DNA of 38,057 nt from a virus, in IMG/VR virus record IMGVR_UViG_3300034983_000114, positions 1 through 38,057 of that record; one strand, 5' to 3'. This document shows, one piece after another, positions 1,548 through 32,234 of the stretch. The notes under the pieces were generated by a model that had not been told where the DNA came from, did not search any database, and worked only from the letters and a program-made list of their open reading frames with translations. The position numbers and the translations under genes were made by a program. Within the stretch, counting starts at the first letter, position 1; each line of letters starts with the position of its first letter.

Positions 1548-1943
1548 ATGCCTTTTTGGAGGAGTGCCATGTTGTTGTCACTTAAAGAAATGAAAGAGAC
1601 GGGAGCTTTTCAATATTTTTCTTCTCCATTAGAATTGAGTCGCTCTCTTTCCCTAATGGAAGCGATAAGACAGTCAGGGATTGTAAATGTAAAAGACAGG
1701 GAGTTAGTTGAAGCGTTGGTTTGGACTTTAGATCCCTTAGACCTTTTCCATGTTTTTAAAAAACCTGGGGTTCAAGAATTTCTTCTGAGTAATATTAAAC
1801 CATTGTATCAGACTATAGAGCAAGATTGGGTGAATAGTTTTAGTCAAAAAATACGTAAGGAATATGGGGTGTTTCCACTTGGCTTGGAAGTGGCGGCAGC
1901 CTTGTTGAAGGGTTTAAATCAAGCAAGGGAGGATTCTTTATGA
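1548..1943 (+). CDS. Helical protein of unknown function, 131 aa
   Basis: ATG at 1548 follows GGAGG with 4-5 bases spacing. An internal ATG at 1569 also has a GGAGGAG-like site and is an alternative. The product looks all-helical with no cysteine motif, signal peptide or obvious catalytic residues. Its stop overlaps the next start in an ATGA junction (1940-1943), so the two genes are probably translationally coupled. I do not recognise a family. Its position left of the neck and tail genes suggests a minor virion or assembly role, but nothing in the sequence proves this. Confidence 0.7.
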   Translation: MPFWRSAMLLSLKEMKETGAFQYFSSPLELSRSLSLMEAIRQSGIVNVKDRELVEALVWTLDPLDLFHVFKKPGVQEFLLSNIKPLYQTIEQDWVNSFSQKIRKEYGVFPLGLEVAAALLKGLNQAREDSL

Positions 1944-1997
1944 CTCGGTGGGGTAACGAAGTTCAAGCCTTTTTGAAAAGACGGTCTGCTCAACCTT
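1925..1997 (+). repeat. Direct repeat copy 1: ribosome-binding site plus N-terminal tag
   Basis: This segment starts with AAGGGAGG, contains the ATG at 1940 and encodes the first ~19 residues of the downstream protein. From the shared TGGGGTAA onwards it matches 2318-2365 with only about three mismatches in ~48 bases. The Shine-Dalgarno and its spacing to the ATG (15 bases from repeat start to ATG) are also conserved. The two copies differ by one codon right after the start. Confidence 0.85.
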
Positions 1998-2266
1998 CTG
2001 AAGTAACTCCTGCGTCTGATGTGTATCAGAATGCTATTGAGGCGGCTGAAGCGTCGGAGCAGGCTGCTGAATTGGCCACTGCGTCGGCCAAGAAGGCATT
2101 GATGGCTTGTCCTATGGGGACGGAAGTTAGGAAGGCCTGGGTGCAGGCAACAATTGCGGCCCGGGAGGCGCTTCGGAACTCTCGTTTGGCGGCGTTCGAG
2201 GCGGGCCGAGCACAAGAATGGGCAAACGCTGGGGCTTTAGCCCAATCTCGTATTAATGCTGGCTAG
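1940..2266 (+). CDS. Tag-bearing alanine-rich helical protein, 108 aa
   Basis: The ATG at 1940 overlaps the previous stop and has AAGGGAGG upstream. Residues 1-19 are a basic amphipathic tag (core WGNEVQ, FLKRRSAQP) shared with the next gene. The remainder (about residues 25-108) is a long Ala/Glu/Arg-rich helix. The stretch coding for it (2041-2220) is about 63 % GC by hand count, far above its neighbours, and uses many GCG/GCC codons, which suggests a different origin from the tag. No family is recognised. The tag may target two different proteins to the same place, such as the capsid interior, but this is inference. Confidence 0.75.
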   Translation: MTRWGNEVQAFLKRRSAQPSEVTPASDVYQNAIEAAEASEQAAELATASAKKALMACPMGTEVRKAWVQATIAAREALRNSRLAAFEAGRAQEWANAGALAQSRINAG

Positions 2267-2295
2267 GTAGTGTTGTTGGCATTCATTTCCCTACT

Positions 2296-2365
2296 AAGGG
2301 AGGGTCCTTGATGCAGTGGGGTAATGAAGTTCAAGTCTTTTTGAAAAGACGGTCTGCTCAGCCTT
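2296..2365 (+). repeat. Direct repeat copy 2: ribosome-binding site plus N-terminal tag
   Basis: This is the second copy of the cassette at 1925-1997. AAGGGAGG starts at 2296 and the ATG is at 2311, the same 15-base offset as in copy 1. The encoded tag differs by a one-codon deletion and an Ala-to-Val change. Similarity stops abruptly after the Ala-Gln-Pro codons, where the two proteins diverge completely. Confidence 0.85.
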
Positions 2366-2664
2366 ATGAGAAAGCCAGAATGGTGACACGAAAGAAGTTG
2401 GTGGACAGGTCAGGGGTAGTGGCCGTAACGTTGCAGACTCGATCTGCATCACAATTTTTAGTAACCCCCAAAGCCGTGTTGGTAGAAAATACAGAAGATA
2501 ATACCCAAGTGTGGATGGATAGAAAAACAGGAGAAGAGTTTATTATTTCCTCAGAGGATAGATTAATGGGTTCACCAGGTATGCCTGCTCCTTTGGGTAC
2601 CCGAGGTAAAATTTTTGGTCTTTCTTTACTTCAAGGAATTCGTTACTTAGCAGAGAGACTCTAG
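2311..2664 (+). CDS. Tag-bearing beta-rich protein, 117 aa, function unknown
   Basis: I chose ATG 2311 over the in-frame TTG at 2308 because the spacing from AAGGGAGG then matches the paralogous cassette at 1940. Residues 1-17 repeat the tag of the preceding gene (WGNEVQ, FLKRRSAQP). The rest is unrelated to that protein: residues about 22-95 look beta-rich (VVAVTLQTR, SQFLVTPKAVLV, TQVWMDRKTGEEFII), ending in a short helix. No cysteines or catalytic motif stand out. The shared tag on two dissimilar bodies argues for common localisation or common translational control. Family unknown. Confidence 0.75.
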   Translation: MQWGNEVQVFLKRRSAQPYEKARMVTRKKLVDRSGVVAVTLQTRSASQFLVTPKAVLVENTEDNTQVWMDRKTGEEFIISSEDRLMGSPGMPAPLGTRGKIFGLSLLQGIRYLAERL

Positions 2665-3002: not shown

Positions 3003-3116
3003 GTGTCTGAGGGGTTGTTAAAGCCCCAGGTCCAGGGGATAAAGGCCCAAAAGCACGTGGATTTCCGGAGTCGTGCGGGGTAGAGGCGGCATATTAAGTG
3101 CCGCCTCTTATTTTTT
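3003..3116 (+). ncRNA. Candidate structured small RNA ending in an intrinsic terminator
   Basis: The ~180-bp gap has no credible gene but is rich in local pairing. GGGGTT 3011-3016 can pair with AGCCCC 3022-3027, or alternatively CCCC 3024-3027 with GGGG 3035-3038. GCACG 3053-3057 pairs with CGTGC 3072-3076, and the terminator stem follows. A weak sigma-70-like element lies upstream (TTGATT 2971-2976, GATATT 2993-2998, 16-bp spacing). The competing G/C-tract pairings could make a switch, or the segment may simply be a structured 3' UTR of the 2718 gene. No known RNA family is recognised. Confidence 0.35.
3082..3116 (+). terminator. Strong rho-independent terminator
   Basis: A 10-bp, very GC-rich stem pairs 3082-3091 with 3099-3108 around a 7-base loop (TATTAAG) and is followed by TTATTTTTT. 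This is the clearest intrinsic terminator in the window. It separates the small-gene cluster on the left from the phosphoesterase/glycosyltransferase genes on the right. Confidence 0.92.
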
Positions 3117-3120
3117 GATA

Positions 3121-30839: not shown

Positions 30840-32234
30840 ATGTTTGATTTTCTAGGAACTTTCAGTAGTAATTTTTGGAGCAAACTTAAAGGTTTTCTTC
30901 AAGATAAGTTTTCTTCTGAGAAAGAAGCTATTGCTTCTCACCTGGACCATGAAGCATCTCGTTTTAGAGCCTATTTAGACAAAATACAGGCAGCGAAAAA
31001 GAAGCGAGGATCAGGTGATGGAGATGTGGAATGGAAAGTGGCAGGAAAACCTCCAGAGACAGCGGTAAAGACGTCGGGAGCACGGCGAGATGGAGATGTA
31101 GCTATACATGTTGAAGATTTAGTTAGGCCAGCAATACCAGCCTTACGCTATGTTCATGAAACATTAGAATATGAAGCTAAATTAGTAGCAGATTTTGTAG
31201 AGAGAGCAGAACGACAAGCAGTTGTCACAAGACAGTGGGATGGCTTAAATAAACAAGCATCAGAAGTAGATTCATTGTTTGCATCGGGCCAACACAAAGA
31301 AAATCTTTTTTCAGATAGTGAACCATCACCTGTGTTGTCAAGCTTAGATGCAATTTTTGGAGAAGGTCAAGTACCTTCATCTGGAACAGGACCGGGTCCA
31401 GGTAAGGATTTAGAAACAGGGGTTTCTGCTTCAGTATTTTCTCCTCCTTCAGTTTTGGGGGGAATATCCGTTGAAGGGGTGCCAGTAAACCCGGGTCCTG
31501 GTCAAGTACTCCCTTCAATTCCTAGAAATCTAGTTCAAGGTACAAAAGGTTTGCCTGGGGTGTACCAGGGTTCAATAAAACTACAAGATGGATCCGTTCA
31601 ATTGACTGATGGGTCTATTCAACGTCCGGATGGATCCATTTTGCAAATTGATGGTACTATTTTGAATTTAGACGGTTCAGTTCTTTACCCGGATGGTCGG
31701 ACAGTGTATGTTGATGGTTCAGTGAAGTACCCAGATGGTTTGATTAGATACCCAGATGGTTCAGTGAAGTACCCAGATGGTTCAATAGCGGCGAATGGTC
31801 TTAGAACATTTTCAGATGGTAGGATACGTCGGGGTGATGGGGCAATTTATAATCCTGCAACGGGAGAAACTTTATATAGTGATGGGTCTCATCGATTTAA
31901 AGATGGTTCTTTTAAAACTGTGGAAGGGTGTTGGTTTCGTTTAGATGGTACAGTGGTTTGGTCAGATGGATCTGTTGTCACACCCGATTGTCGTGTTTTA
32001 CGTCCTAATGGTGAGGTATGGTATCCGAATGGTGATGTTTTGTTGCCGAGTGGTAATGTAAGACATCCGGATGGTTCAGTGACAGATCCTTCCGGGACAC
32101 AGATAGAACCACCGACAGAAGGTTGTGTCAGGCAGGTTGGGGATTGTGAAAAGTGTCCAGACCGAAATTCGGTTAGATGTTATAAAAGAATAAGGTGTTT
32201 TCCTCAAGGGTGTGATGGGGGGCAGTATCCATGA
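30840..32234 (+). CDS. DG-repeat (G-box-like) fibre protein with Cys-rich tail, 464 aa
   Basis: ATG 30840 lies two bases after the PAAR stop. Residues 1-130 are helical and charged; 130-245 is a Pro/Gly/Ser linker. Residues 250-420 contain about 24 copies of a 7-9-residue unit ending in DG(S/T)(V/I), often preceded by YP (KYPDGSV). This resembles the G-box repeats of the Tcp10_C domain in CPAP/SAS-4, which form an open beta sheet; I infer a fibrous beta structure. Residues 425-464 have six cysteines (CVRQVGDC, CEKC, RCYKRIRC, GC), perhaps metal- or disulphide-bound. It may be a tip fibre or receptor-binding needle. Confidence 0.7.
   Translation: MFDFLGTFSSNFWSKLKGFLQDKFSSEKEAIASHLDHEASRFRAYLDKIQAAKKKRGSGDGDVEWKVAGKPPETAVKTSGARRDGDVAIHVEDLVRPAIPALRYVHETLEYEAKLVADFVERAERQAVVTRQWDGLNKQASEVDSLFASGQHKENLFSDSEPSPVLSSLDAIFGEGQVPSSGTGPGPGKDLETGVSASVFSPPSVLGGISVEGVPVNPGPGQVLPSIPRNLVQGTKGLPGVYQGSIKLQDGSVQLTDGSIQRPDGSILQIDGTILNLDGSVLYPDGRTVYVDGSVKYPDGLIRYPDGSVKYPDGSIAANGLRTFSDGRIRRGDGAIYNPATGETLYSDGSHRFKDGSFKTVEGCWFRLDGTVVWSDGSVVTPDCRVLRPNGEVWYPNGDVLLPSGNVRHPDGSVTDPSGTQIEPPTEGCVRQVGDCEKCPDRNSVRCYKRIRCFPQGCDGGQYP
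31713..31782 (+). repeat. 42-bp period DNA repeat within the DG-repeat gene
   Basis: A 28-base sequence at 31713-31740 recurs exactly at 31755-31782, giving a 42-base period (14 codons, two DG units). Identity at the DNA level is higher than among the other repeats, so this is a recent duplication, probably by replication slippage. Confidence 0.8.

Follow-up and report, generated by a model that had tools for sequence, protein, structure and literature searches.

A duplicated ribosome site and N-terminal tag, possibly an address of the capsid-targeting type, at the start of two adjacent genes in a huge phage with a contractile tail

The question raised by this locus is how two consecutive phage genes come to begin with almost the same stretch of DNA when the rest of the encoded proteins is different, and what such a shared beginning might do. 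The window, that is, the whole stretch of DNA analysed, is a viral record of 38,057 bases and represents a fragment. When it is compared with itself, a single match is found, between positions 1925-2001 and 2296-2369 (85.7% identity over 77 nt, E 5e-18), and there is no further repeat in it at E<=1e-3. The 77-nt repeat contains the Shine-Dalgarno sequence, the ATG (at 1940 and 2311) and 18 codons that align between gene A (1940-2266, 108 aa) and gene B (2311-2664, 117 aa), whose parts are collected in Table 1. The aligned codons encode WGNEVQ[A/V]FLKRRSAQP[S/Y]E and are preceded by MTR in copy A and MQ in copy B, a one-codon indel; both tags end in Glu, which is the last shared codon, and directly past it the similarity stops. 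At the protein level, residues 1-45 of A and B match at E 3e-13, and no similarity was detected between body A and body B. The description in an earlier note of a cassette that is near-identical in adjacent genes, with dissimilar remainders, is thus borne out by the 77-nt match and the unrelated bodies.

Table 1. Features of the gene group that carries the duplicated cassette (window positions)
Feature	Position	Strand	Basis or remark
Upstream gene, 131 aa	1548..1943	+	ORF list; without Pfam or PHROG match
Ribosome-binding site, copy A; AAGGGAGG at 1925-1932	1925..1939	+	Sequence; start of 77-nt match
N-terminal tag, copy A: MTRWGNEVQAFLKRRSAQPSE	1940..2002	+	ORF list, self-comparison
Body A, about 87 aa, Ala-rich	2003..2266	+	ORF list, structure model
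Ribosome-binding site, copy B; AAGGGAGG at 2296-2303	2296..2310	+	Sequence; self-comparison
N-terminal tag, copy B: MQWGNEVQVFLKRRSAQPYE	2311..2370	+	ORF list, self-comparison
Body B, 97 aa, unrelated to body A	2371..2664	+	ORF list
Downstream gene, 81 aa	2718..2963	+	ORF list; without Pfam or PHROG match
Terminator-like hairpin, 11 pairs + T run	3082..3117	+	

Within the 18 shared codons the two copies differ five times; three of these differences are synonymous (AAC/AAT, CAA/CAG and GAA/GAG) and two are nonsynonymous (Ala/Val and Ser/Tyr), which corresponds to dS 0.31, dN 0.049 and a ratio of 0.15 (Fisher p 0.067). Since three of the five differences are synonymous, the conservation looks to be at the level of the peptide, and the synonymous excess points, weakly on its own, to a constraint on the peptide. 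For the same reason the claimed identity down to synonymous sites was overstated, and the selection on the RNA that was proposed from it finds no support; the claim of a recent duplication is partly right, namely for the DNA, with its dS of 0.31.

In the single-sequence structure model of protein A (pLDDT 81), the tag is predicted as a separate helix (residues 3-17), followed by a break and then by the two long helices of the body (25-56 and 61-107), while the model of protein B (pLDDT 41) is unusable. The amphipathicity of the window tag does not go beyond chance (shuffle p 0.23). No Pfam or PHROG family was matched by either protein, and no relative of body A was found. Candidate relatives of protein B were rejected: L003 because its match is out of frame inside another gene, and low-scoring matches in a Listeria phage and in plasmids of Agrobacterium because they are at chance level.

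The window encodes a contractile-tail module (head-tail connector, sheath, tube, baseplate hub and PAAR spike), and its relatives are huge phages such as LR745208 (485 kb) and Tunturi_5 (309 kb), together with 201 related IMG/VR stretches whose contigs reach 618 kb. In none of the 80 relatives kept does the identity of the neck protein exceed about 44% across the greater part of its length (partial matches reach 53%), so the window phage has no known close relative. No capsid, scaffold or protease gene was recognised in the 38-kb fragment; protease homologues occur in the relatives. Both tagged genes belong to a same-strand group (1548-2963), in which the final codons of the upstream gene overlap the ribosome site and start codon of copy A (ATGA overlap at 1940-1943), and the terminator-like hairpin behind the group would be its putative end. 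Elsewhere in the window, the first 140 bases seem, judged by eye, to have a much higher G+C content than what follows; they hold no clear gene and are possibly a foreign end or an assembly artefact. An array of YPDGS-type repeats is present in a 464-aa protein (30840-32234) that adjoins the PAAR spike protein. The product of 3144-3707 matches a PHROG RNA ligase family weakly (E 0.0015), and its HMT and HIS motifs resemble a 2H phosphoesterase.

The exact tag is confined to the window pair, and no other searched record has one. It is missing from the 80 related viral records, LR745208 and Tunturi_5; as degenerate DNA patterns it has zero matches in viral contigs and bacterial genomes, and in a phage collection that includes T4 it has no match. 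As the exact tag is private to the pair, the related phages were examined for the same architecture with other sequences. Gene calls in the relatives are mechanical, being open reading frames with the start picked by ribosome-site score, and the thresholds were set during exploration. Among the 1576 genes of 69 non-redundant loci, which include the window, 27 pairs (in 14 loci) share only the N-terminus and 3 pairs only the C-terminus; the 27 are pairs and not independent events, a few being ordinary paralogues and the majority short peptides on unrelated bodies. In genomes that are complete or nearly so the pattern is plain. In G065, MKHLAQIQxEFxKxA stands on 20 genes; in G023, (N)PRKAFEEAL stands on 9-10 genes and a second family on 6; in LR745208, LRSKLIRLAHxNPxLRPxLLPLLK begins 11 dispersed genes, two of them adjacent; and LIRLG tags are found on 7 genes of G066. 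In 400 kb of each of G053 and G078 there is no N-terminal tag family of at least three genes. The adjacent genes 8960 and 9314 of L039 have 30 codons that are identical but for 1 nt within the tag, and their ribosome sites are nearly equal (GTGAGGAAAACCC vs GTAAGGAAAACCC), so that this cassette of ribosome site plus 30 codons repeats the design of the window pair. On whether the tag exists in this pair only, the result is mixed: the exact tag occurs in no relative, which speaks against a shared address, and the relatives carry equivalent tags of other sequence, which speaks for it. The window tag is linked to these tags through architecture and clade, not through sequence.

The relatives also allow the constraint to be followed over longer divergence. 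For ten LR745208 tags dS is 1.23, dN 0.17 and the ratio 0.14, and nine G023 tags have a ratio of 0.09; the synonymous sites of the G065 tags are saturated and hence give no ratio. In L029, L086 and LR745208 the upstream regions of the tagged genes are largely unshared. By these measures the tags are under constraint at the peptide level.

If differing tags do one job in different lineages, their exchange on orthologous bodies would be expected. Gene 251198 of G023 (NPRKAFESAI) and gene 9314 of L039 (LIKLGTEHPELRPHIRPVL) encode proteins with 51% identity over 96 residues directly past unrelated tags, and gene 351838 of LR745208 and gene 9456 of L030 likewise have orthologous bodies with different tags. 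Topoisomerase IB bears an MNHIAQI tag in G065 and RIAARY in G004, and the CCA-adding enzyme bears KHYIIVQKDF in G065 and RVVQRYL in G023; these two cases are weaker, because the N-terminal extensions of large enzymes vary anyway. That is to say, an orthologous body bears the tag of its own phage's lineage.

The closest known layout is that of T4, in which the tag of ipII and ipIII is an established capsid-targeting sequence (CTS) removed by the prohead protease, and in which the internal proteins are a diverse anti-defence set with the CTS alone in common (PMC3012670, PMC5694885, PMC9391042). The two T4 genes are adjacent, with 49 of 55 nt identical between the ribosome-binding site and the end of codon 10 and 81% identity over 106 nt, and past residue 17 their proteins are unrelated. 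The window pair resembles them in its adjacent genes, near-identical ribosome site and N-terminal codons and unrelated bodies, and it thus has one feature of a T4-type CTS, the same short N-terminal peptide on otherwise unrelated proteins. The T4 CTS has 10-20 residues, whereas the window tag has about 20, and gp21-type cleavage is a feature of T4. Inspection found no alignable motif between the window tag WGNEVQAFLKRRSAQP and the N-termini of ipII and ipIII, and since similarity to the T4 CTS was sought and not found, the tag is not filed as a homologous CTS. When the pipeline was run on T4 as a control, it recovered the ipII/ipIII pair; it also returned nrdG/mobC, in which a homing endonuclease gene has its neighbour's first residues, and I-TevI/segD, which are related endonucleases. 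In phiKZ its sole pair is gp97/gp153, both annotated as structural head proteins, which have a common N-terminus as the window pair does. In SPN3US, the diverged head proteins gp53 and gp54 have an identical 15-residue N-terminus ending in Glu, and processing in that phage is after Glu (PMC5694885). The window tags agree with them in a shared N-terminus closed by Glu; however, gp53 and gp54 are paralogues with long propeptides, in contrast to the short tag and unrelated bodies of the window, and head-protein propeptides of SPN3US and phiKZ are cleaved at A-X-E or S/A/G-X-E. In P1, the first 30 residues of DarB suffice to bring a reporter to the capsid (PMC9024508), although the Dar proteins are without a consensus signal, whereas the window tag is common to both proteins.

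The window pair is probably an address tag of one destination or another. By analogy with T4, we tentatively read the cassette as a tag of the capsid-targeting type with the virion as its destination, at a little short of an even chance. A huge phage with a contractile tail would then have two small accessory proteins with the same N-terminal helix; a phage-encoded prohead partner (core or scaffold) would recognise it, both proteins would consequently become part of the head and be injected along with the genome, and the Glu closing the tag would be the likely point of cleavage. Copying of the cassette with its ribosome site from gene to gene would give the neighbour the same address and the same expression. 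We infer the binding partner, packaging, destination, cleavage and body function from the analogy; the observed basis is the duplicated cassette, the unrelated bodies, the T4 layout, the recurring lineage tags and the tag exchange. The suggestion in the earlier note that the tag sends both products to one place is accordingly supported in part and by analogy: the repeated N-terminal tags of the clade, their exchange and the ipII/ipIII layout speak for it, and the privacy of the exact tag speaks against it.

More broadly, it is an evenly balanced proposition that this megaphage clade routes many accessory proteins, among them enzymes such as topoisomerase IB and the CCA-adding enzyme, via short lineage-specific terminal tags, of which the window pair is one. 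The new element would be that tags specific to a lineage, and exchangeable, are used across the clade. N-terminal targeting sequences go unmentioned in a 2026 review of jumbo-phage biology, and no description of such lineage tags was found in the open-access literature, to which the search was confined (subscription papers lay outside its scope). If the tags mark virion cargo, sequence alone would tell which ones among hundreds of unknown megaphage proteins are packaged and, at infection, delivered to the host. Each tag would also be a candidate handle with which to load proteins of choice into very large capsids. The virion-cargo reading can be tested directly by way of the lineage tags and their exchange between orthologous bodies.

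The position of the tagged genes was tested on whole genomes only; that they cluster near virion genes within the 20-kb loci is not counted as evidence, since the neck gene was the basis on which these loci had been chosen. The structural span holds 6 of 9 tagged genes in G023 (p 4e-4), 4 of 11 in LR745208 (p 0.05, borderline), one of the latter near the capsid gene with one ORF between, and only 2 of 20 in G065. The G065 tagged proteins include topoisomerase IB, the CCA-adding enzyme, an FtsK-type ATPase and an aldo/keto reductase, none of which is an internal protein of the classical kind. Early-acting enzymes delivered by the virion and an intracellular docking signal are both possible, and since enzymes are among the tagged proteins of the relatives, the destination may be other than the virion; likewise, with several tag families in G023, a tag need not mean the virion.

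Among the alternatives, a duplication accident, in which a gene start was copied next door by recombination or mobile-element insertion and the peptide has no joint function, is unlikely. It would fit the limitation of the exact tag to the window pair, the first residues common to T4 nrdG and mobC (the model for such an accident), the T4 record's description of alt.-1/alt.-2 as a duplication of the alt start, and a dN/dS signal that is weak with 18 codons. On the other hand, both reading frames are intact, only 2 amino-acid changes at the observed dS suggest constraint, and the relatives repeatedly keep their tags across longer divergence, as in LR745208. Its particular form, a homing-endonuclease insertion that duplicated the gene start, is not supported, as neither body matches a homing endonuclease, Pfam or PHROG family.

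It is rather improbable that the tag is an address for another destination, docking both proteins on an intracellular phage partner such as a replication complex, a phage-built compartment or a cargo shell. The G065 tagged genes, mostly outside the structural span and several of them enzymes of intracellular type, agree with such docking, and the same genomes hold terminal tags of other kinds, some of them C-terminal and on 40 small genes. In bacterial microcompartments, short terminal helices are general cargo signals, and their encapsulation peptides resemble the window tag as short N-terminal helices on unrelated cargo, whereas the window is of phage context. Against this destination, the closest precedents from the same pipeline (ipII/ipIII of T4 and gp97/gp153 of phiKZ) are head proteins, and import in nucleus-forming phages is reported to be independent of conventional terminal signals (PMC13282480).

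It is very improbable that the repeat is kept at the RNA level, for translation initiation or mRNA regulation, with the peptide incidental: the ribosome site does lie within it, but the A/B differences are mostly synonymous, there are zero Rfam family matches, upstream regions of the tagged genes in L029, L086 and LR745208 are largely unshared, and the translation-enhancing cassette once proposed is disfavoured because the relatives keep the tag peptide while the codons diverge (0.14 in LR745208, 0.09 in G023).

Further terminal motifs were seen in the relatives. In G023, at 22-104 kb (L108-L112), a C-terminal tag [TS]LW[DE]HLxxD ends about 40 small genes, with the variants PTAWERLxxDD (>20 genes, G004), TLFDHLxDD (G042) and PTLWDRILEE (G078), and in G004, at 155-195 kb (L166-L168), a C-terminal YxQEEITxAIxEV is common to about 14-16 neighbouring genes. 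A clade-wide N-terminal motif, [RKQN][VI][AVL]x[RK][YFH], as in MxxRVAARYLxxA, occurs in 17 genes of G023, 13 of G004, 10 of G042, 7 of LR745208, 5 of G078 and none of the window, where 0.4-0.8 genes would be expected from shuffled N-termini. Just upstream of the prohead protease gene of G023, two adjacent small genes (310226-310758) begin with MTYDRRY. In L005, at 39705-42079, the LR745208 neck gene appears to be split: between its two halves stand an ORF that resembles an endonuclease and an intein-like stretch.
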